DNA of 57,204 bases. Source: an uncultured Clostridia bacterium (GTDB lineage Bacteria > Bacillota > Clostridia > TANB77 > CAG-508). The notes beneath the pieces were generated by a model. That model did not search any database and was not told the origin of the DNA. It worked only from the letters and a program-made list of their open reading frames with translations. A program made the translations under genes and the position numbers. The stretch is taken from assembly GCA_947631495.1 (NCBI GenBank), contig CANRLO010000003.1, positions 1 through 57,204 of the forward strand, in the 5' to 3' direction. Below are positions 4,217 to 56,925 of this stretch, piece after piece (within the stretch, counting starts at the first letter, position 1; every line of letters starts with the position of its first letter).

Positions 4217-4253
4217 AAAAGGGACAGATGACACAAAAGGAAACGTCCCTTTT
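4217..4253. repeat. GGGAC-type short palindromic repeat at the spoIIE 3' end
   Basis: AAAAGGGAC and GTCCCTTTT flank a spacer containing GACACAAAAGGAAAC. The repeat ends four bases from the spoIIE stop codon. Related GGGAC/GTCCC cassettes abut the 3' ends of eight other minus-strand genes here. Confidence 0.7.
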
Positions 4254-4256
4254 GTA

Positions 4257-7646: not shown

Positions 7647-7784
7647 TTTTTAAATCCTCCTTATTTAAAGAAAATTTTATATACCTACTATACCTTTTAT
7701 TATACCACTTTTGTAAGAATTTGTCAAAGTTGACTCATTCTAAAATCAGTTCACTCTAAGGATAGCTCAATTTTTCTCAAAAAA

Positions 7785-7837
7785 GCGAGCCTAAGATTTT
7801 CTAGCAAATAGAAATTTTAAGAAAATCTAAGGCTCGC
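7785..7837 (-). terminator. 53-bp hairpin repeat, copy A; terminator of the surface-protein operon
   Basis: GCGAGCCTAAGATTTTCT pairs with AGAAAATCTAAGGCTCGC (one mismatch in 18) around a 17-nt loop containing AGCAAAT. On the minus strand it is followed by TTTTTT. A 53-bp homologue with compensated stem changes lies at 18891-18943, and diverged relatives lie at 54222 and 56489. Confidence 0.85.
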
Positions 7838-7866
7838 CATATTCAGCCGTCTATTTTTTATTTATA

Positions 7867-10800
7867 TTATTGTTTTAAAACCTTCTTTTTAATAAAGATG
7901 ATTCCTCCTACAATAATTCCTGCTGCTACAATTACAACAAATGCAATTATCATGTAAATACCTGCATTACCAAATGGTGGTAAGATTTTTACTACTTCTG
8001 CGCGGTCGGTATCAATTTCTTGTGGTTCTTTTGTTGGGTCTTGATTTCCGACAACTGAGAATTCATTTCTTCTACCTGCTGTATTATTTGTTTTTACAAT
8101 TTCTACGATGTTGCGATAACTTAAGTCATCTGTAGTATTTTCTGGTGTAATAACTTGTGTTAATACTAATGAAATACTATCTGTAGTGTCTTTTGCATTT
8201 TTGTTTACTTTATCTTTATATACAGTTGGTACTAAATATTCATTTAGTTTGTCTGTAATAAGGATTGTATTATAGTTTTCTACTGCACTTTCAAGTCCTT
8301 TATTAATTAAACCACTACTAATTAATGCATCTTTGTTTGTTAGTGACCAATCTAAATTAGCATTATCATTTGCATTAAATTGTAAATTGTTTGCTACATA
8401 GTCTACGACTTGTATTGCTTTTGTTTTTACAACTGTGTTTACGTCTTTAACTTGACCTGTATAGTAGAAACTATTTTCTTGATAATCTACCTCTCCTATA
8501 TTACCTGCTCTAATAGCATAGCTAATTTGAATTGTTGCACCATGCATTAATTCTTCATCCATACTAATTTGAACTAAACCAACTCTTTCTGCATTTTGTT
8601 TTCTAATGTTAGCTAAAGTTCCAAATACAGCTGGGTCCATTAAGGTTTGGTTATTACTATATGGTTTATGTTCTTTCCATAATACATTTGTTGTTGGTCC
8701 TGTTGTATCAAATAGAATTGTTCCATCTGCTAGTGTAAGTTTAACACGTGTTACCTTTTTATCAATTGCAATTTGTGCTTTTGGTCTTTCTTCTAGTCCT
8801 AAGTCTAAGTTATTTAAAGCATAAGTTGTTTTATTATTTACTTCTTGTCCTCCTGTTTGCTCTCTGTTGTATTCTATTTCCATTACCATTACACCAGTTT
8901 CTGCTGTCATTTTTGTGTTATCTATTAATTCCTTAATTAGAGATTCCATTTGAGCTTTGGTATATGCTTTTCCTGCATAAGTTGGTAAGTCACGGAAAGA
9001 AGCAAGTACTTCTGCTTGACGGTTCGTAATGTCACCTTTTGAGTAATTTACTACTTTATCTCTTATACTCTTAATATCTTTTGCATCTGATACATTAGAC
9101 TTTTTATCTGATTCAGTTGTATCATATAAGTAAGTTCCTGTTTCGTTGTTAGATGCATCTGCTTTAAATGTAGGGATTTCTTTTAGAACTCCTCCTAATG
9201 TTTCTTGTCCTAAATTCCATGTAGAATTGTTTCTCCATGTATAGTTTTTATTTTGAGTAATTCCTGCTTGGTAAGTCGTTGATTTATAATCTTGACCATT
9301 ATAAGATTTTTCATTTAATCCTGTTCTTCCTAATGTTTTATTTACATCATTAGCATCTTTAGTTAATACAGTTTTTTCTGTATCACCATAAATGAATCTT
9401 ACAATATATTTACCTGGTATGAAAGATTTGAATGCATATGCTCCATCATGGTTTTCTCCAAAGTTATAGTTTTGTACTAATCCATTATAGTCAATAATTG
9501 GTTTAGTACTACTTGCTGTTCCAGAACCATTTTCAAAAGTTCTCCAAACGAATTCTCTACCATTATCCATTATTTCTACTAATTGTACAGTAACACCATT
9601 GATACGTTTTTCATTATCTTGTTTTATACCGTCACCTGTTGTTGTAGCTCCAATTGTTTTTGTTCTTTCATCTTCCCATACAACACCAGATATAACTCTG
9701 TTTGCACTATCTTCTCTATATAGTTTTAAGCGTAAGTTTGGCGCTTTATCGGTATCGTCTTCAAAGTTTTGATAATTAATTGTTTTGTCCTTTGGTACAT
9801 CATTTGGTTCTAGATTTCCTGGTTTTGAATCTACATCAATAATTCCTGCTGGTGTATTTCCTACATCTCCTGCATTTGGAATTCTAGTTCCTGATGCATA
9901 TCTTGTATAATATCCATTTATTTCAACAATGTTTTCTTTTCCTACACCAATAGCATTTCCATTTTGGAAATCCTCATCTAATTTTAACCATGCTTCGTTA
10001 TCTCTAACATCTTTCTTAACTCTAAATGTTAAATATACATATGCTATTTGACCACCATTTAAGTAAGTACCATCTAATCCTTCAATATACATCTTATTAT
10101 ATCCATTTAGATTAATTTCTGTTGTAGAACCATAACGACTATTGTTTTGTGTTCTAACAGATGATTTAGAACCATTTCTACCAATTTGAATATAAGAACG
10201 AGAATCTATATATTCATAATCTGAATCATAGTAATCTACTAATTCATTTACTCTCATTTGAATACTTAATGATTGGTTAAGTACCATAATTTTATAAGTA
10301 ACATATACTTCTAGCTCATCATTTTTTGTTTTTCCATAGTCTGCAAAGTTTGTACCATAATTAGTTACTTTATATAAGTAATCTGATTTGTAAATTTCTC
10401 TTGAATAGTTAGTATTATAATAACTATCAGATAATCTTACACTAATATCCCATGTTCCATCTGCGCCTGGCTTATTTTCCAATGTGTTATATGTATATTC
10501 TTGTTTTTGTCCATTAATTTCTAAGCTTACTTTTTCAATATCTTTCTTTATTGCTAAGTCTGCTTCTTGTCTTGGATGTAAACCAAGGTTGATACAAGAA
10601 ATATTATTACTATTAAAATATAATGGATAATATGGACCTAGTTCTGGTGATTTACTTGCCAATATTGCATTGTTAATTACAAATTCTGGATTTACTGGAT
10701 ACAAATCATGAGCACCTGTTCCATTTCCTGTACTTGCTGTGATTTGACAATCTTTTACAAATTGAATCATTTTTTGAGTTAATGCATTGCTTGAATTTTG

Positions 10801-12696
10801 TAATATTAAGTTTCCAAATTCATCAATAACTGCATCTCTTGTTTTCTTATATTGTCCATCTGCACCTAAAGTAAGTCCTAATAATTCATTTTTACTAAAA
10901 GTTTCCCTATTTACTCCATTTACAACATAGTTTGCTGGTGATGAACCAATATGTTCAAATTTTGTATTATATGCTCTTCTTTCTGATGCAACATCAGTTG
11001 CATTTGAATTTGTAGACCATTGAGGGCTTCCCCATGTACTAGAAGATGCATAAGTTGTTGGTTCATAATATTGTCCATTATAAGTAAATGTTACATAGTA
11101 TCTATCCATAGCATTTAAGTTATCAAATCTATATTGTCCGTTTTTATCTGTTGTTTGAGTTCCCATATGAGTGCCATCTTGTTTATATAGGTCTACTATT
11201 ACATGTGGTACTCTTTTTTCATTATTATCTAATAGTCCATTTGCTAAACTTTCTTTTCCACCATTAGAATCTTCCCAAACGTAACCACCTAATGACATTC
11301 TTAAATCTATTGAATTTGGGGTTGTTATTGAATCTTCTGACCATGTTCTGCCAATTGTTTTAACTTGTATTAAAATTTGAGATTCATAATTTCCAATCTT
11401 AAATGGTTTAGCATAACCATTTACTTCTGTATATGTACATTCTACCCATTTACCTGCACTATTTTTTATATTATGTTTCATATCATCTCTTTGAGTATAA
11501 TATGCTACATATGTCCAAATTTCTCCACTACCAGTATATTTATCATATTGTGCAGTAGTTTCAGATAGATAAGCAAATTTTACTTGAATTTGAACAGAAG
11601 TAGGATTTCCTAAAGCATCTGCATTAAATTGTAAGAAAAATAACTCTCCTGAATTTGGATATTTGCCACTACTCGTAATAACTGTTGGTTTAACACTTTT
11701 GTTACCATTTAATACATATATTGTTTGAACATAATAGAATCTAGTATCTGATGGATAATTTAATTTGTATGGTCCTATCGTATATGTTCTATTCGTTTGA
11801 TTTACTATTACTTGAGGTTGTATATTTGTATCAAAAGATGCTTTTCCTTTATTTAATAATCCATTGTCAACATATGTTTGGTAGGTTTTTGCTTCGTTTA
11901 ATAATGCAATTGAATCAGCTGTTTTTTTAGTATAATCATTTCCTTGATTCAAGCCAGGGTTATCTGTCCATATTGCATCTTGAATTAATTGTGCATTTGC
12001 ACTATCACTTTTTGTTCCAGGATAATTTCCCTGTTCAAATCCATAATCAGTTGGTTTGGCACCATTCCAAGAACCTGCACTTAGTAAATAAGATACATAG
12101 TCATTTTTATATGATTTATTACTTTCTGCCAGCGTATATTGTTGTTCTTTTGTAAAATCATTACCATAACCAACATAAGTTGCACCAGAAACGGCATTGC
12201 TTAGTAGCTCTTTTATTTTATCTTCACTTGATTTATTAGTCCAAGTTTTACCATTATCGTTTCCATTATACTGATAAAATGCACTTGTTTTGTCTTTTAC
12301 TGCACCTGCTACAGTATGTGTAGATGGTTTAAGACTATTATATAAAAATTGACCCACACCATCTTTCGTCGTTGTAATTTCAGTTTGATTTCCAGGATAA
12401 TAATGTTCGCAGTTTGCATTAAAGTGAACTTCACATCCATTTATTGTTGTTGTTTCAATTTTATCTGGTGTAAATCGTAGTGGCCAACCTCTTGTAATAC
12501 AGAAGGTACCACCTGCAGCAGACGTTTTACTGTAAAAATTCGGATCTCCTTCTTTTTGTGGTACTAATTCTTGTATTCCTGTGTACATATCAGTATGAGC
12601 TTCATTAATTGCTTTAAATGCAAATGATTGTTGTGCTATTGTAAAAAATAAAGTAAATACTATTAAGCTAATTATTAGTTTTATTTTTCTATTCAT
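7867..12696 (-). CDS. Giant secreted SdrD-B surface protein with putative thioester adhesin domain
   Basis: The product has 1609 residues. A signal peptide (about 1-26, cleavage near SFAF) is followed by a region resembling thioester domains (TED/TQXA): Cys66 in GTFCITRG and Gln239 in LIQDAIW. These are 173 residues apart and match the Cys and Q-x-A-[IV]-W elements that form an internal thioester for covalent host-amine capture. Two SdrD-B/Cna-B-type domains follow (LGGYVWEDSNGG...DNNEKR near 470; SGVVWEDERTK...DNEKR near 1015) within DUF11-like regions. The C-terminus is ILPPFG, one membrane helix and KKK, a sorting-signal layout without canonical LPXTG. It is the second gene of a two-gene operon, 14 bp after its larger partner. 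It contains no CGG. The TED assignment is inference from motifs. Confidence 0.85.
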   Translation of the reverse strand: MNRKIKLIISLIVFTLFFTIAQQSFAFKAINEAHTDMYTGIQELVPQKEGDPNFYSKTSAAGGTFCITRGWPLRFTPDKIETTTINGCEVHFNANCEHYYPGNQTEITTTKDGVGQFLYNSLKPSTHTVAGAVKDKTSAFYQYNGNDNGKTWTNKSSEDKIKELLSNAVSGATYVGYGNDFTKEQQYTLAESNKSYKNDYVSYLLSAGSWNGAKPTDYGFEQGNYPGTKSDSANAQLIQDAIWTDNPGLNQGNDYTKKTADSIALLNEAKTYQTYVDNGLLNKGKASFDTNIQPQVIVNQTNRTYTIGPYKLNYPSDTRFYYVQTIYVLNGNKSVKPTVITSSGKYPNSGELFFLQFNADALGNPTSVQIQVKFAYLSETTAQYDKYTGSGEIWTYVAYYTQRDDMKHNIKNSAGKWVECTYTEVNGYAKPFKIGNYESQILIQVKTIGRTWSEDSITTPNSIDLRMSLGGYVWEDSNGGKESLANGLLDNNEKRVPHVIVDLYKQDGTHMGTQTTDKNGQYRFDNLNAMDRYYVTFTYNGQYYEPTTYASSSTWGSPQWSTNSNATDVASERRAYNTKFEHIGSSPANYVVNGVNRETFSKNELLGLTLGADGQYKKTRDAVIDEFGNLILQNSSNALTQKMIQFVKDCQITASTGNGTGAHDLYPVNPEFVINNAILASKSPELGPYYPLYFNSNNISCINLGLHPRQEADLAIKKDIEKVSLEINGQKQEYTYNTLENKPGADGTWDISVRLSDSYYNTNYSREIYKSDYLYKVTNYGTNFADYGKTKNDELEVYVTYKIMVLNQSLSIQMRVNELVDYYDSDYEYIDSRSYIQIGRNGSKSSVRTQNNSRYGSTTEINLNGYNKMYIEGLDGTYLNGGQIAYVYLTFRVKKDVRDNEAWLKLDEDFQNGNAIGVGKENIVEINGYYTRYASGTRIPNAGDVGNTPAGIIDVDSKPGNLEPNDVPKDKTINYQNFEDDTDKAPNLRLKLYREDSANRVISGVVWEDERTKTIGATTTGDGIKQDNEKRINGVTVQLVEIMDNGREFVWRTFENGSGTASSTKPIIDYNGLVQNYNFGENHDGAYAFKSFIPGKYIVRFIYGDTEKTVLTKDANDVNKTLGRTGLNEKSYNGQDYKSTTYQAGITQNKNYTWRNNSTWNLGQETLGGVLKEIPTFKADASNNETGTYLYDTTESDKKSNVSDAKDIKSIRDKVVNYSKGDITNRQAEVLASFRDLPTYAGKAYTKAQMESLIKELIDNTKMTAETGVMVMEIEYNREQTGGQEVNNKTTYALNNLDLGLEERPKAQIAIDKKVTRVKLTLADGTILFDTTGPTTNVLWKEHKPYSNNQTLMDPAVFGTLANIRKQNAERVGLVQISMDEELMHGATIQISYAIRAGNIGEVDYQENSFYYTGQVKDVNTVVKTKAIQVVDYVANNLQFNANDNANLDWSLTNKDALISSGLINKGLESAVENYNTILITDKLNEYLVPTVYKDKVNKNAKDTTDSISLVLTQVITPENTTDDLSYRNIVEIVKTNNTAGRRNEFSVVGNQDPTKEPQEIDTDRAEVVKILPPFGNAGIYMIIAFVVIVAAGIIVGGIIFIKKKVLKQ

Positions 12697-12710
12697 ACTT
12701 TACCTCCTTC

Positions 12711-15700
12711 CTATCTTAATACCTTCTTTTTAATAAAGTAAGCTCCGACGCCTATAATTGTTATTATTGATATGCTTAATCCTATAAATAGGATTGCTTC
12801 ACCTGTTTTTACTGAAACTAATACATCTGCTGAAGAAATATCATCTTCATTTGATGTTTGATTTCCTGGTGTTGAATCTACATCTTTTAAGCCTAAATCA
12901 TTGTATGCTTCATAAATTTCTGCTGTATTTGAATAAATATTTAAGTTATCTTCTGTCATCTTTTTACTTAATAGTAAGGTTACTTCTTTGCTTTCACCTG
13001 GATTTATTAAAGTATTTGCTAAACTTGAATTGTAAATTGCTCCATTTTCGTTAGAATACCAATCTTTGTTTAATTCTGAACTGAATTTCATTTCAGATGG
13101 TAGATAATCTACAATTTTCTTTACATATCCTGAAATTGCACCTTGGTTTGTAACTCTAATTTTATATTCTACTAAAATGGTGGTTTCATTAATTCTTTTT
13201 GCTACTAAGTCTCTTTTAGCAAGTTTTGTATCTTCATAATTGTAAATTGTTGTTCCAGTAGAATCTTGCACTGTTATTTTTGAAACCATTTTATCTAATT
13301 TTAAGTCAAATTTAGGGTTTTCTACTAATCCTAAGTCTATGTTGTATATATTTTTATCGTTAATTGTTATTTGTTCTGTTATAGCTGATATTCTTTTTTC
13401 ATTATCTAATGTAATTTCTGTATCTATAGCATCTGAATTTTTAGTTTCATCAATTCCATCTGCATGATAAGTAGTTGCACTGAAGTTTGCTATATCATAT
13501 AAGAAAATAACTGTATAATTTCCTTGTTTTAGTCCAGAAAATTCATAACTTCCATCTACATTAGTTACTTGTTTTATTCTATTACCTTGCGCATCTGTTA
13601 CTAATTCTCCTGTTGTATTATTAAATAATAGAACTTCTACATTAGCTACTGTTTCTTCTTCTATGTCTTTTACACCATCATTATTTTCATCTTTCCATAC
13701 TTGTCCTGCAATTCTTCTTGTTGTTTCTACAGGATTGTCTGGATTTCCTGGGTTTTCTGGTTGAGCATAAACTGCTTTTTCAATGGTATGTGTTATTTTA
13801 TTTGAAGTTAATGTTCCTATACTACTAGAAGAAATTGTTGCTTCACTTGTTATAGTTTTAGCTTCTTCAAGCTCTTTTGCATAAACTTCAATAGTAATTT
13901 TTGCGGTTTGTCCTTTTAGTAAATTAAAGTTTACTTCTATTTCATTTTCATCTGTAATGTTATAATAACTATTTGTAAATTCTCCTATTTCTACATTCGT
14001 TTGTACATATTGTAATTGTTCTGGTATTTTTGTTTTGAAAACTAAGGAATTTGCTTCATTTCCTCCTGTATTTTTAACTTCAAATTTGTAGCTATAATCT
14101 TCTCCTGCTGATATTTTAGCATTATTTGCAATAGTAGATGTTTGAGAAATAGCTATTTTTTCTTTACCTATCATCATTGTTATTTTATTAGAAGTTTCTT
14201 CTTGTATATCATCAGCTTTAATTTTAATACTAGCTTCTATTTGTTTTTCATAAACATCTTGTGGAAGTTGCTCTACTGTTGTGTTTATTTCGATTGTGTC
14301 ACCATTTATTTTCTCTAGATGAATTATTAGAGTTCTTGTTTTTGCGTTATATTCAATTCCATCTCGATTATATATTACTTTATCTTCTTCTAAAATATAA
14401 GTTCTAATTGCAGCATCTTGATAGCTTAATCCTTCTGGTATTACCATCGTAATAACTGGATTTTGCACTGTTCTGTCATAATCATATAATTTAACATTAT
14501 AATTAAATGTTAATGTTTCTCCTTCTTTTAAAATATAGCTAGAACCTTCTTTATTTGTATAGTATTCTATTTTAAAATATGCTTTGGTTACTGTATTTTT
14601 TACTTCTTTTGTTTGAATTTGTTTTTCTAAGTCTTTTGCATTAATTACTACCTTTATTCCTATTTGGGTTGTATAATCATTGTCTGTATGAGGATAATCG
14701 CCTGAATTATGATATCGATTTCCTTCATGTTCTATATAGTGGTCTTCATTTTTACAAATATCTTCTACTGTTAAATTATTTACAACTACCCAAAAACTTT
14801 GTGTTTTGGTTTGACCTACTTCTATATTTCCTAATTCATAATAAAGTGATTTTTGAGTACTATCTTCTGTATAGTAGCCTATTCCTTCTTCGCCTTCTGC
14901 AAATTCAATATGAGAAATACAATTTGGTAAATCTATAGTTGCTGTTACATCTTCTGCTACTTGTTTTCCAATGTTTTTTACACTTACTGTGTATTTAATA
15001 AATTTACCAGTTGGAACTTCTATTGTTTCTGCTACGTTAGAAGAAATACTTGTTTCTAATACTGGTCCTGCTAGTGTAGCAACTCCTGTTTTAGTTGCTA
15101 TTACTTTATCGTCAATTGCTCCTGTTTCTAAGTTATTTTTAAAGTATACAGCATATGTTTCATAAGCAGCTTCATTATGTTGTAAATTAGCTGGTATTTC
15201 TGCTGTATAACTAAAGTTTATTGCTCCTGATTCCTCTAATGTTGTATTTTCTATTACTATTAAATAAGATTTTACTTCTTCTAAGTTCTCTGGTTCAGAA
15301 ACCCAAGCATTTGAAGCTACACCTAATTCTTTTGTTGCATTAGCATTAGTAGAATAATAAATTTTTACTTTGCTTTCTTCTATATCACTTACTTCAATTT
15401 TGCTTGTTAATTTCATATTAATAGTAGAACCTAAATCTGCTCCAGTATCAATATCTTTGTTTCCTTTAAAAGGTACTCTTCCTAAAATAGAAATATTTTC
15501 TATTGTATTTTTGTAATTGTTTATAACGTTCATAGAAAATTTTGCAGTTCTTGCTTCTGCAATTGTTTCAATAGTTGCTGTTTTTTCTTCTCCACTAATA
15601 GAAGTTAATGCTTCTGCTCCTTCTGCATAATCAGAAATTGTAGTAACAGTTACTACTCCTGTTGGTGCTACGAAGTTTATTGGTGCAGATACTTCGTTGG

Positions 15701-17768
15701 TTTTTGCAATGCTTCTAGTTACAGCACTGTTAGCATATTGCATTATAACTTGAGCTTGTTTATTTGGTGTTAATCTTTTAACAGTAATATCAGTTGTAAT
15801 AACTACATTTACTCCTTTTGATACTGCTGCTAATGTATATTCTGATTGTACCCCTTCTAATTCTACTAAAATTGTTTTTGTTCCATTTGCATTTTGTACT
15901 ACTTCATATGATTTTACTGTTAATTTAGAATTTTCTCCAGTAAATAGTACTTCTATATCTTTTATTTTGATTTCTTCTACGTAGTTTGGAAGTGTAATTC
16001 TTAGGGTAGGATTTTGATATAACATACAATCTAATGTATCTGTTTTTAAAATTGCTGTTATTTTTACATTTTGATTTGTAACTACAGTAGATAGATTGTT
16101 ATTATCTATAGTTAATTCTGCTTGTAATGTTGGTTCTATTAAAGTAATTTCTTTGTTAATTGTTTGTTGTGCAAAGTTTGTTTCTTCATTTACTGCAGTT
16201 CCTACTATGTTTAATTCTAATTTATTCATACTTTGCATTTGTGTTTGTGAATATTGTGTTTCTGCTTTCATTGCTTTTGTAATAGTGAAGTTTATTGTTC
16301 CTTCTACTTGTGGTTTACTTGTTTCTATTTTTAAGGTATTTACGTTATATTCTGTTAAATCAACACTTAGCTTTCCTTGTTGTTCTTCTGTTTGTGCATC
16401 TATTTGAGCTATTTTTTTACCGTTTGCAAAAAAAGCGATACTTCCTTCTTGTCCTAATATTTTTTCAAAGTTCTCTTTTTCTATGCTGATTGTTTTATAA
16501 TATGTTTTTGTTGCTTCTGCTTTTTTATTTGTGTTTTCAATAAAATTATCAATTGATTGTTCTAATATAATTTTATCTGTTAGTTGTGCAAGTCCAATAT
16601 TTGCTGATATTGTTTCTTCATATTCTGTTTCTACTTTATTGCTTGCTTGATAATTTGCATAAATTTGTCCTTTGCTTAATTCTGATGTATTTGTCATTTG
16701 GAAATCAATTAAGCTACCAATTTGGTCTTTTAATGTAATTTCTCCTTCAAATGTTTTTGTAATTTTCTCTTCGCCTTCATTATAAATAGTTAGTGTATTA
16801 ACAGCATTAATAGAAACTTTACTGCCTTCTTCTGGAAGGTTATCTAAAGCTTCTTCTGGGTATAAGTATGTAATAACAAATTCATCTTGTGCTTGTTTTT
16901 TCCATGAAATTTCGTTTTTCGCATTTGGTTCATTTTTTGTAGTAATAACTAATTTATTTGCTTCTAAATCATATGTATAATTATCTTGTGTAAAGTGAAT
17001 TCCACTTTCATCTCCATCTGTTGCGTTTGTATTTTTTGCTACTACTTTTACTTGCTCTGGTTTATAGTTATTAATACTTGGAATTTCAATTTCAATGCTG
17101 TTTTCTTTTACTGGTAAAATATTGTCTTTTAATGAAGATTGTACTATGGTTTGTAGAAGTAAACCTTTGTTATCATTGATGTTGTATGGAATAAATTTAG
17201 CAACTTTCATATTGAATTGTGCTTCTTTTTCAGTTGCCCATTCTAATTCTAATGAAATTTCTTTTTCTATTTGTTTTTCTTTTCCTTTACCATCTACATA
17301 GGTTGCTGTAAATTTAACTTTATTTTCTTTGTTCCATTGTTCTACTGAAATACTTTCATTTGGTACTATTTCAATAGGAAGTGCTACTTCCATGATATTG
17401 CCATGTTTGATTTGACGAAAGAATATTTTATTTTCTTCTATCTTTTCAATTTGTGCGTTATTTTCTGTAGCTTTTACAATAAAGTTAGCATTTTCTAATG
17501 TAATTACTGCATTTTTTAGATAACCTGCTTCTTTTACCTTAATAGCAGAATATAAGTAGTTTTCTTTTCCTATTGTTTTGGTAGAAGTATATCCTTTTTT
17601 GTTGCTATCCATAAAATAAGCATCAAACTCTACATTTTTATTGTTTGTTGGTTGTAGTGTTTGATTCTCCAAATTACTTGCAAATGCTTCTCCTAACATG
17701 CTTACATTTGTCATCATTAGCATAAATACTAAGATACTTGCTACAATTTTTTTGCCTTTTTTATACAT
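12711..17768 (-). CDS. Giant secreted DUF11/SdrD-B repeat surface protein
   Basis: The product has 1685 residues. The signal peptide spans about 1-30 (ends GEAFA). A long stretch of Ig-like DUF11-type beta modules follows, then one SdrD-B calcium-binding-like domain (GQVWKDENNDGVKDIEEE...DNEKR) near residue 1370, another DUF11 module, SVKTGE, a hydrophobic helix and the KKKVLR tail. KTG before a membrane segment and basic tail resembles the (S/P)PxTG-type sortase signals of Clostridia, but it is not canonical LPXTG and no sortase gene lies in the window. The protein is probably an extracellular stalk or adhesin assembled with the next gene. The start is supported by the GGAGGAAATTTCT leader. 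Confidence 0.85.
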   Translation of the reverse strand: MYKKGKKIVASILVFMLMMTNVSMLGEAFASNLENQTLQPTNNKNVEFDAYFMDSNKKGYTSTKTIGKENYLYSAIKVKEAGYLKNAVITLENANFIVKATENNAQIEKIEENKIFFRQIKHGNIMEVALPIEIVPNESISVEQWNKENKVKFTATYVDGKGKEKQIEKEISLELEWATEKEAQFNMKVAKFIPYNINDNKGLLLQTIVQSSLKDNILPVKENSIEIEIPSINNYKPEQVKVVAKNTNATDGDESGIHFTQDNYTYDLEANKLVITTKNEPNAKNEISWKKQAQDEFVITYLYPEEALDNLPEEGSKVSINAVNTLTIYNEGEEKITKTFEGEITLKDQIGSLIDFQMTNTSELSKGQIYANYQASNKVETEYEETISANIGLAQLTDKIILEQSIDNFIENTNKKAEATKTYYKTISIEKENFEKILGQEGSIAFFANGKKIAQIDAQTEEQQGKLSVDLTEYNVNTLKIETSKPQVEGTINFTITKAMKAETQYSQTQMQSMNKLELNIVGTAVNEETNFAQQTINKEITLIEPTLQAELTIDNNNLSTVVTNQNVKITAILKTDTLDCMLYQNPTLRITLPNYVEEIKIKDIEVLFTGENSKLTVKSYEVVQNANGTKTILVELEGVQSEYTLAAVSKGVNVVITTDITVKRLTPNKQAQVIMQYANSAVTRSIAKTNEVSAPINFVAPTGVVTVTTISDYAEGAEALTSISGEEKTATIETIAEARTAKFSMNVINNYKNTIENISILGRVPFKGNKDIDTGADLGSTINMKLTSKIEVSDIEESKVKIYYSTNANATKELGVASNAWVSEPENLEEVKSYLIVIENTTLEESGAINFSYTAEIPANLQHNEAAYETYAVYFKNNLETGAIDDKVIATKTGVATLAGPVLETSISSNVAETIEVPTGKFIKYTVSVKNIGKQVAEDVTATIDLPNCISHIEFAEGEEGIGYYTEDSTQKSLYYELGNIEVGQTKTQSFWVVVNNLTVEDICKNEDHYIEHEGNRYHNSGDYPHTDNDYTTQIGIKVVINAKDLEKQIQTKEVKNTVTKAYFKIEYYTNKEGSSYILKEGETLTFNYNVKLYDYDRTVQNPVITMVIPEGLSYQDAAIRTYILEEDKVIYNRDGIEYNAKTRTLIIHLEKINGDTIEINTTVEQLPQDVYEKQIEASIKIKADDIQEETSNKITMMIGKEKIAISQTSTIANNAKISAGEDYSYKFEVKNTGGNEANSLVFKTKIPEQLQYVQTNVEIGEFTNSYYNITDENEIEVNFNLLKGQTAKITIEVYAKELEEAKTITSEATISSSSIGTLTSNKITHTIEKAVYAQPENPGNPDNPVETTRRIAGQVWKDENNDGVKDIEEETVANVEVLLFNNTTGELVTDAQGNRIKQVTNVDGSYEFSGLKQGNYTVIFLYDIANFSATTYHADGIDETKNSDAIDTEITLDNEKRISAITEQITINDKNIYNIDLGLVENPKFDLKLDKMVSKITVQDSTGTTIYNYEDTKLAKRDLVAKRINETTILVEYKIRVTNQGAISGYVKKIVDYLPSEMKFSSELNKDWYSNENGAIYNSSLANTLINPGESKEVTLLLSKKMTEDNLNIYSNTAEIYEAYNDLGLKDVDSTPGNQTSNEDDISSADVLVSVKTGEAILFIGLSISIITIIGVGAYFIKKKVLR

Positions 17769-18173
17769 AGAAATTTCCTCCTATTTTCTTTTCTATATAA
17801 ATTTTACTTTTCTAAAGTAAAAATAATTATTGACTATCTTTTATTATACCTTATTTTTTAGCATTTTTCAATACTTTTTTGTAGTTTTTAAAACTTTTTA
17901 TGTTGAATTGTCGTATTTTTTATTTTTATGTCGAATTATTGCTTCTTTTGTCTATTTTAGACATAATACCCCTTAATTATTTATTTTTATATATTGTCTT
18001 ATATTTTTTTTTATTTTTCAAGTGGCAAAAGGCTTGTTTAACAAGTTATAATTGTTTTTCCTTTACGGAAGCTCTCTTTGTCCTTTTTATATTAAATTTT
18101 TATTACAATATTACAATATTTGTAACACTATAGTGTTTTATTGCATATGATACTATTAAGAGGTGATTATATA
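17769..18173. promoter_or_regulatory. Divergent intergenic region with a 14-bp palindrome
   Basis: This 405-bp AT-rich gap separates the surface-protein operon from the plus-strand pair. AACACTATAGTGTT (18124-18137) is a perfect palindrome just upstream of CATATGATA and the RBS of the next gene, and is a candidate operator. I see no gene in the gap; the 77-aa ORF at 17900 is T-rich noise. Confidence 0.4.
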
Positions 18174-18503
18174 ATGAAGAATGAGAAAAATGAGAACATT
18201 GAATTCCCTGATTTTGAGCAATTTACGTCTTCTTTTGACTCGAATGACACTACTTTTTCTAATTCTGATACAAATAATCCTTTTTCTAATATTGATATGA
18301 ATACTATTTTAAAAATAAAACAAATTATGGAAAAAATGAAGCAAAAAAAGGACGACCCCAGAGCAAATTTACTTTTGTCTTTGAAGCCTTATTTAAAACC
18401 TAGTAGAAAGCAAAAGGTAGATAAATATATTGAACTCTTTCAAATGGGTAATATGATGGAGAATTTAGGTCCTATGTTTATGGGTGGTGAGAATACAAAA
18501 TGA
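18174..18503 (+). CDS. Small acidic/basic hypothetical protein
   Basis: The ATG at 18174 is chosen over the track's 18141 because AGAGGTGAT sits 7 nt before it. The 109-residue product has an acidic, Asn/Ser/Phe-rich N-terminal half and a basic helical C-terminal half (ILKIKQIMEKMKQKK, LLLSLKPYLKPSRKQKVDKYIE, ending NLGPMFMGG). The family is unnamed to me; it resembles small conserved clostridial proteins of possible sporulation link. Its stop overlaps the next start (ATGA), implying translational coupling. Confidence 0.75.
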   Translation: MKNEKNENIEFPDFEQFTSSFDSNDTTFSNSDTNNPFSNIDMNTILKIKQIMEKMKQKKDDPRANLLLSLKPYLKPSRKQKVDKYIELFQMGNMMENLGPMFMGGENTK

Positions 18504-18880
18504 TAAATCCTTACCCTTTTTTTGGCTTTTCTCCATTTCGAAGACCTTATCCTTATCATTATTATAACTCTTTACATAATATTAATATAGAAAAGCAAAA
18601 TTATGTCTCTAGCCCCAGTAGCCCTAGCGTTTTCTCTAAACATCAAAGTAAAAATTTGCAGAATTCTAATGCACATCAACATGAAAATTTGCAAAATTCT
18701 AATGCTTCTACTGCTAACATTCCAGATTCTGAGTATAAACAAGATGAATGCTTTGAATTTTTTGGCTTAAAACTTCATTTTGATGATTTGCTTTTGATTG
18801 CTTTGCTTTTCTTTCTTTATCAAGAAGATGTGAAAGATTCCTATTTATATGTTGCACTTATTTTATTGCTTTTAAGTTAA
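18500..18880 (+). CDS. Small C-tail hydrophobic protein coupled to the preceding gene
   Basis: The 126-residue product overlaps the upstream stop by 4 bases. The N-terminus is aromatic and Pro-rich (YPFFGFSPFRRPYPYHYY). A Ser/Asn/Gln linker follows, containing two copies of NLQNSNA, and then a hydrophobic C-terminus (DDLLLIALLFFLYQED...VALILLLLS). This layout occurs in small spore-surface or membrane proteins of Clostridia. No function is assigned. The 53-bp hairpin follows immediately. Confidence 0.75.
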   Translation: MINPYPFFGFSPFRRPYPYHYYNSLHNINIEKQNYVSSPSSPSVFSKHQSKNLQNSNAHQHENLQNSNASTANIPDSEYKQDECFEFFGLKLHFDDLLLIALLFFLYQEDVKDSYLYVALILLLLS

Positions 18881-18890
18881 AAAACAAAAA

Positions 18891-18943
18891 GCGAGCCATA
18901 GATTTCATTACAATTTTCATTTGCTAGAAATTCTATGACTCGC
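18891..18943. terminator. 53-bp hairpin repeat, copy B; bidirectional terminator
   Basis: GCGAGCCATAGATTTC pairs with GAAATTCTATGACTCGC. On the minus strand it aligns base for base in length with copy A, sharing TTTCTAGCAAAT and the GCGAG ends. It sits between the convergent 18500 gene and minC, with T-rich flanks on both sides. Confidence 0.85.
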
Positions 18944-18949
18944 TATATT

Positions 18950-19564
18950 TTATTCTAATACTATTTCATTTTTTTCATTAATATATGCATAACTTAATTT
19001 TGTTTCTTCTGTTTCTTGTTTTTCAAATTCTTTAATTATATCTGCAATACGTATTTGTGGACATTCAATACCATTAGTAGCAATCATGGCTTTACGATTT
19101 CCTTTTGCTCCTGCATGTGCTAAACCTCTTAGTTCACCTAGTATAACAATGTTTTCACCTGCTACAATTTCAGCACCAGCATTAACATCTCCAAGTACTA
19201 CTACACTTCCTTCATATTCTATTTTTTGCCCTGAACGTAAAGCACCTTTGTAAAAGGTTGTTTCGGAAGATTTGATTTCTTGCTCAAATCCTTTTTTTAT
19301 ACCATGAAGTCCTAATGTTGTTGGACTTTCAAATTCAATTTCTACGTCGATTTGTTCTTTTATAATACTTTGTATTTCTTCTATTTCTTTATTTTTCAAT
19401 ATTTTTCCTACTATTTTAATAGGGGTAGTGTCTCCTTTGTATAGCTTTTTTAAGTCTACTAATTTTTCTTTCAAACATTCTGTAATTTCGTTTTCTTCTG
19501 CTTTTTCATCTATTTTAATCCATATTTCGTTTTTCTTTAGTTGAATAGTTATACAATTTTTCAT
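18950..19564 (-). CDS. minC: Septum site-determining protein MinC
   Basis: The 204-residue product has an N-terminal FtsZ-inhibiting domain (about 1-95) and a C-terminal right-handed beta-helix (GALRSGQKIEYEGSVVVLGDVNAGAEIVAGENIVILGELRG, RKAMIATNG). MinC blocks FtsZ polymerisation and is normally recruited by MinD. It is the last gene of the mre-mrdA operon, 63 bp after mrdA. minD and minE, which usually follow, are absent here: a terminator hairpin comes directly after minC. Confidence 0.93.
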   Translation of the reverse strand: MKNCITIQLKKNEIWIKIDEKAEENEITECLKEKLVDLKKLYKGDTTPIKIVGKILKNKEIEEIQSIIKEQIDVEIEFESPTTLGLHGIKKGFEQEIKSSETTFYKGALRSGQKIEYEGSVVVLGDVNAGAEIVAGENIVILGELRGLAHAGAKGNRKAMIATNGIECPQIRIADIIKEFEKQETEETKLSYAYINEKNEIVLE

Positions 19565-54135: not shown

Positions 54136-54177
54136 TTTTATCATCCTCTCTTTCTTTGGTTTTTTATATTCTAGGAA

Positions 54178-54278
54178 AGTCATCGTTGAAAACGATGGAC
54201 TTGACATAGAAGATAAATATGCGGAGTTTAGATTTTCTTAGCAATTTATTGCTTAGAAAATCTTAATTCCGTTTTTTT
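54178..54278. ncRNA. Candidate structured RNA or leader between M18 and vanW genes
   Basis: Two hairpins occur in tandem: AAGTCATCGTT-GAA-AACGATGGACTT (54178-54202), and a 23-bp imperfect stem from CGGAGTTTAGATTTTC to GAAAATCTTAATTCCG (54222-54271) followed on the plus strand by TTTTTTT. The second stem resembles the 53-bp hairpin family. It could be a plus-strand small RNA with terminator, or on the minus strand the M18 5' leader. Confidence 0.45.
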
Positions 54279-56488: not shown

Positions 56489-56518
56489 GCAAGCCTTAGA
56501 TTTTCTAGCAAATAGATT
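56489..56518 (+). repeat. Decayed copy of the 53-bp hairpin repeat
   Basis: GCAAGCCTTAGATTTTCTAGCAAATAG matches the left arm and loop of copy A (GCGAGCCTAAGATTTTCTAGCAAATAG). The right arm is missing, replaced by AT-rich sequence. Confidence 0.7.
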
Positions 56519-56616: not shown

Positions 56617-56700
56617 GGTGTACCCGGAGGGATTCGGCAAGCCGCGTCGGGAAAATGGTTCACCGAACCATTTTCTAATCCTCCTTTTCGAATCCCATTT
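56616..56700 (-). pseudogene. tRNA 3'-end fragment with a palindromic insertion in the T-loop
   Basis: TGGTGTACCCGGAGGGATTCG is the complement of a tRNA 3' end (acceptor CGGGTAC, discriminator A, CCA). The T-loop TTCGAA is interrupted by about 50 bp holding GAAAATGGTTC-ACC-GAACCATTTTC. CGAATCCC then resumes. The rest of the tRNA is absent. Confidence 0.6.
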
Positions 56701-56719
56701 TATTTTCTATATAAATTAA

Positions 56720-56748
56720 AATAGAATCACTTTAAATATGATTCTATC
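56720..56748 (-). terminator. Terminator after tRNA-like fragment 2
   Basis: AATAGAATCA and TGATTCTAT, followed by TTTTAATTT on the minus strand. Confidence 0.75.
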
Positions 56749-56749
56749 T

Positions 56750-56806
56750 TGGTGTACCCGGAGGGATTCGAACCCCCAATCTCAAAGTTCGTAGCCGAAC
56801 ACTCGC
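56750..56806 (-). pseudogene. Truncated tRNA 3' half, att-site-like
   Basis: On the minus strand: CTACGAA loop, variable region, T-arm GGGGGTTCGAATCCCTC, acceptor CGGGTAC, ACCA. The matching 5' acceptor GTACCCG is absent and the anticodon stem is broken, so only the 3' half from the loop onward is present. The loop suggests tRNA-Arg(ACG), but the isotype is uncertain. Such 3' halves are typical footprints of integrase sites. Confidence 0.6.
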
Positions 56807-56925
56807 TTCAAAAATAACAACTTTTGAAACACTTAATTTTCTAAGATTATATTTTATAAGTATTGATATTACCAAATCAGATAAATTTTTTTAAAATTTA
56901 ATATAGTTTAAGTAAGTTTAAGAAA

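Follow-up and report, generated by a model that had tools for sequence, protein, structure and literature searches.

The 53-bp hairpin that recurs in the window, a stretch of 57,204 nucleotides from an uncultured Clostridia bacterium, is the right half (hairpin 1) of a mobile DNA element without genes, about 112 nt long and carried by gut Clostridia, that contains two hairpins. We consider it probable that this element is non-autonomous and that it inserts behind a T-run, bringing its own T6, with terminators as its main target. Judged against the open-access literature, it represents a new family of mobile elements that are small and palindromic.

Architecture of the element and its copies in the window

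A preliminary description of the window had recognized two related sequences at 7785-7837 and 18891-18943, and our analyses agree that both are 53 nt in length, form long hairpins, have TTTCTAGCAAAT in common and differ by paired changes in the stem. Compared with shuffled sequence, their folding z-scores are about −6 to −7 and −5, respectively. The terminator sense of both copies is the minus strand; the shared 12-mer nevertheless lies on opposite strands at the two loci, as the 18891 hairpin has an interior that is inverted with respect to its flanks. By contrast, the 53-bp hairpin had been taken for the whole unit, and this did not hold. When copies were aligned together with their flanks, conservation extended into CATATTTATCTAGTAC, across a second hairpin and as far as CTACTATAT and then an A-run, and the real unit is about 112 nt with two hairpins. 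In the terminator sense, a T-run is followed by ATATTSTAGGAAA, hairpin 2, a GATAAWTATG linker, hairpin 1, TTTTTT and then A. The 5′ end of the element reads ATATTSTWGG, with GTAG present in some subfamilies only. In G236, the genome with the freshest copies, the element is exactly 112 nt long, and these 112 nt contain no ORF.

Because a plain MAFFT alignment analyzed with RNAalifold lost hairpin 1 to misaligned loops, covariation was scored on 29 diverse sequences aligned to a covariance model. In this alignment, 95% of cells pair, and both partners have changed in 27 of 39 pairs. Cells changed on both sides numbered 175; the shuffled controls gave 53, and sliding the structure never gave more than 24. 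Fitting to a covariance model favors pairing, but the gap to the controls is still large. Wobble pairs were equally common on the two strands (22 versus 22 in one set of sequences and 18 versus 16 in another) and therefore, in what is a weak test, nothing suggests selection for an RNA from one strand. Searched against the Rfam families, the element gave no score above a curated cutoff.

The window holds one complete copy, at 54166-54278 with the plus strand as its terminator sense (covariance model score of 96 bits, E-value of 1e-16). It consists of hairpin 2 and the linker (AAGATAAATAT) at 54166-54219 and of hairpin 1 with the right T-run at 54221-54278, and both hairpins contain compensatory changes. 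Ahead of it lies the target T-run, a T6 at 54160-54165 (plus strand), and its neighbors are divergent genes for an M18 aminopeptidase (minus strand) and a VanW/G5 protein (plus strand). Forms at 54222 and 56489 had been listed as decayed or related. This describes the second well, which is a half-hairpin relic at 56489-56513 (plus strand) that retains the loop of hairpin 1 and one of its arms, whereas the first belongs to the complete copy. The copy at 7785-7837 (minus strand) is truncated, comprising hairpin 1 without hairpin 2. It is located 30 bp behind the stop codon of an SdrD_B-domain gene (7867-12696) and has the T6 of its right end at 7779-7784 (AAAAAA on the plus strand). The copy at 18891-18943 (minus strand), of which G010 has a better preserved ortholog, also lacks hairpin 2; it begins 6 bp behind the stop codon of a minC-like gene (18950-19564) and is followed by a T5 at 18886-18890 (AAAAA on the plus strand). 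Near the window end, at 56617-56870, we noted two tRNA-like stretches (GGTGTACCCGGAGGGATTCG..), one of them apparently broken, for which ARAGORN made no tRNA call.

Dispersal, empty sites and distribution

The window belongs to a draft genome of 1.63 Mb in 148 contigs that is 89% complete. Further copies exist genome-wide: a pattern of arm plus loop matched 11 times in the whole genome and its reversed control 0 times; the count within the window alone would not be significant. The covariance model identified about 13 complete and 7 partial copies (opposite-strand duplicates removed by hand count). The same model detected the element, in a patchy distribution, in 27 of 145 genomes of the family and, at the level of the order, in 58 of 290, of which three lie outside the family. 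Among 84,980 species genomes, exact matches were confined to MAGs of uncultured gut-type Clostridia, many of which are named from rabbit ("Lapin") samples. Plasmid records, phage records and viral contigs gave no match, the viral scan being for one exact pattern.

The proposal that the hairpin belongs to a mobile palindromic unit was borne out by dispersed copies, by empty sites in relatives and by identical copies at unrelated sites. The joined flanks of copies in the genome holding the window match contiguously in relatives. Alignments identified empty sites with a single T6 for the copy at 54166 in four relatives (G002, G014, G015 and G022) and empty sites for the copies at L036 and L044 in G022, while an apparent empty site for L043 in G010 turned out to be a deletion, as a scrap of the left end remains. 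G236 has 12 copies in unrelated surroundings; 8 are identical, and the 12 differ from one another by no more than 2 bases. G013 and G010 each have high-copy subfamilies of their own. Individual genomes thus contain many intergenic hairpin copies, as do genomes with REP/REPIN-type repeats.

Target site and relation to terminators

The left T-run varies in length (variance, 1.41), whereas the right T-run hardly departs from 6 (variance, 0.32), and the two lengths are uncorrelated (rho, 0.03). Therefore, the left run is that of the target, the right run is that of the element, and the target is not duplicated. The base after the right T-run is A in 61 of 69 copies compared with 42% of T-runs in general. 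The insertion point is T(5-9)|A and insertion is directional, with hairpin 2 always toward the target T-run. Since the element starts with A, as does the target sequence after its T-run, the breakpoint can be placed only to within one base.

The target run is preceded immediately by a terminator-type hairpin in 44 of 74 copies, which is a lower bound because the script misses short hairpins of <14 nt, compared with 99 of 800 (12%) comparable intergenic T-run|A controls. By eye, all 12 sites in G236 look like terminators. T-runs without a hairpin are used also, as at 54160 and by about a third of the copies. Mapping relative to gene ends placed 0 of 54 copies inside an ORF, and in 38 of 54 cases the upstream gene is directed at the element. 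The target rule is thus a safe one: behind a gene and behind its terminator. Some copies are inserted precisely where another copy has its right end, as expected if the right end is itself a target. At one terminator shared by L042 (C103 of the genome holding the window) and L097 (in G010), the element lies behind the terminator in the former and an IS200-like insertion encoding a 165-aa TnpA lies just behind it in the latter.

The right end of the element (hairpin 1 plus T6|A) has the form of an intrinsic terminator, and the hairpin at 7785 is the sole visible terminator of the SdrD_B-domain gene. At this locus, G004 and G022 have ordinary terminators, G010 has another terminator followed by a scrap of the left end, and the genome holding the window has hairpin 1 only. 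Behind the minC-like gene, an ordinary terminator is present in G022, and a better-kept hairpin 1, the inside of which is likewise inverted, in G010; in the genome holding the window, the element hairpin is again the sole visible terminator. Since the position occupied here by the element hairpin holds an ordinary terminator in relatives, exaptation of the hairpin as a predicted terminator is likely at both 7785 and 18891. Domestication as a terminator, which the preliminary description had suggested for the family, thus probably applies to these two copies; most complete copies sit behind a terminator rather than replacing it, because a hairpin followed by a T-run is both the right end of the element and its preferred target.

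On the simplest mechanism, an enzyme acting in trans would recognize a hairpin followed by TTTTTA as a folded single strand and would cut there at element ends and at targets alike, so that it would take terminators for element ends. The upstream gene would retain its terminator and gain a second one, which would make insertion nearly harmless. If the old terminator then decayed, hairpin 1 would be left as the terminator of the gene, as may have happened at 7785 and 18891. A selfish element that supplies ready-made terminators would in this way have a concrete route to becoming the only one of a gene, and terminator predictions in these gut bacteria would partly count mobile DNA.

Candidate mobilizers and known systems

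We tentatively suggest that the mobilizer is neither a Y1 transposase nor a reverse transcriptase, and that it recognizes a hairpin plus T-run|A and treats intrinsic terminators of the host as element ends, i.e., that insertion occurs by terminator mimicry; this is a possibility to which we give rather less than even weight. A search for a partner transposase did not find one, as the Y1/RAYT loci examined bear other palindromes. Among the left ends examined, there was neither an autonomous or long copy with a gene inside nor a TnpA-bearing copy with the ends of the element. These negatives, like the carriers described below in which Y1_Tnp or reverse transcriptase was undetected, are limited by incomplete assemblies and by possible loss of the enzyme after the element had spread. 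The very fresh copies make G236 one place in which the enzyme may be found.

Among the alternatives, the one that survives best, although we regard it as unlikely, is a REP/REPIN-type element mobilized by a RAYT (TnpA-REP, Y1 HUH) gene of these genomes. Such repeats resemble the element in being hairpins that are spread in genomes and form genome-specific subfamilies and for which single-strand transposition is plausible (PMC3116915, PMC8266576). Folded ends, a single direction and the lack of a duplication fit this explanation, and G236 carries one RAYT. A Y1_Tnp gene is present in 14 of 14 genomes of the genus with matches to the model versus 6 of 13 without, but this correlation is confounded by descent, as is the RAYT tree, in which some clades are common in carriers. 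Moreover, Y1_Tnp was undetected in the carriers G141, G179 and G315, and G318 has a broken version. The element differs from REP/REPINs in that it has no conserved GTAG (or CGTC) tag 5′ of the hairpin and in its T-run|A target (PMC8266576); GTAG is not conserved at its end. Nor did we meet a cognate RAYT flanked by copies of the element: the RAYT genes examined have other, cognate palindromes at their flanks (GGGACGT.., GGGGTGTCCCC.. and GTAGGGGC..). A RAYT partner is thus unsupported by adjacency. One copy in G016 (L122:3677-3795) lies ~20 bp upstream of the start codon of a RAYT gene, inside the flanking palindrome pair of that gene.

Several further observations concern the RAYT genes themselves. 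At L034, L035, L123, L122, L229, L312 and other Y1 loci, RAYT-like genes each have their own flanking palindromes (GGGACGT.., GGGGTGTCCCC.., TACCCCAAAAGGACC.. or GTAGGGGC..) and, therefore, a single genome contains several RAYT-repeat pairs. One RAYT clade adjoins radA in several genomes, including one of another genus. At 4233-4255, the window contains a palindrome, ACAAAAGGAAACGTCCCTTTTGT, that resembles those beside the RAYT of L034.

IS200/IS605 elements and their gene-less derivatives have folded ends, a fixed direction and insertion behind a fixed target without duplication (PMC6006769), and the element likewise has hairpins at both ends, no inverted repeats and no target duplication. 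In IS200/IS605 the hairpins are subterminal, whereas those of the element reach its very ends, and the element has no guide tetranucleotide complementary to the target 5′ of each hairpin (PMC6006769). By inspection, the sequence 5′ of hairpin 1 lacks an A-rich stretch, and hairpin 2 leaves no space for a guide on its 5′ side. We also considered an IS200 TnpA as the partner and rejected it, the IS200 of G010 having unlike ends.

If the element were a MITE mobilized by a DDE transposase with duplication of a T-run target, its size of <200 bp, AT richness, T-runs on both sides and patchy distribution would be accounted for. Terminal inverted repeats are absent, however, and the length of the right T-run does not follow that of the left, and we disfavor this explanation as very improbable. 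A SINE-like, retro-inserted terminator transcript, in which a reverse transcriptase copies an RNA ending in U6 from an A-run primer, would combine a U-run 3′ end with a T-run target in a manner that fits target-primed reverse transcription. It is equally hard to credit, since reverse transcriptase (PF00078, RVT_1) was undetected in the carriers G000, G010, G017, G035, G090 and G149, and since the wobble pairs show no strand bias. That the hairpins are not mobile at all, and are ordinary conserved terminators or structured RNAs kept by descent, would agree with the terminator-like hairpin 1 plus T6 and with copies that are orthologous across species (the C16 copy of the genome holding the window has orthologs in G001, G017 and G026), but the empty sites and the copies in G236 refute it, unless these are assembly artifacts, and it also conflicts with the patchy presence, the copies inserted behind one another and the lack of an Rfam family.

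The stem-loops targeted by group IIC introns are often intrinsic terminators. These introns are like the element in inserting behind a DNA stem-loop, whereas the element is 112 nt without an ORF, an intron RNA or a maturase (PMC10190682), and the six carriers listed above are without detected RVT_1. Compared by description, the nearest repeat in looks is SPRITE of Streptococcus pneumoniae, a small interspersed repeat that resembles a Rho-independent terminator, has AAAA/TTTT ends, has no known partner IS and is enriched behind and between convergent genes (PMC3049150). SPRITE has one 18-bp duplex with a long T-rich tract and no established target rule, in contrast to the two conserved hairpins, T-run|A target, direction and empty sites of the element (PMC3049150), although some solo copies of hairpin 1 would look SPRITE-like.

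At five loci in G013 (L173, L174, L177, L179 and L180), both hairpins have a shared inserted module (about TAGCTGTTYGANCGTWRKGARTTACAGATA) in their loops, such that hairpins grow inside hairpins. At L148, L164 (G016) and L188 (G013), a second, different repeat opens, behind a T-run, with that same left-end-like sequence (T6-7|ATATACTAGGAAAGTAYGCTATTTTAAG..), and this repeat may be a sister element.
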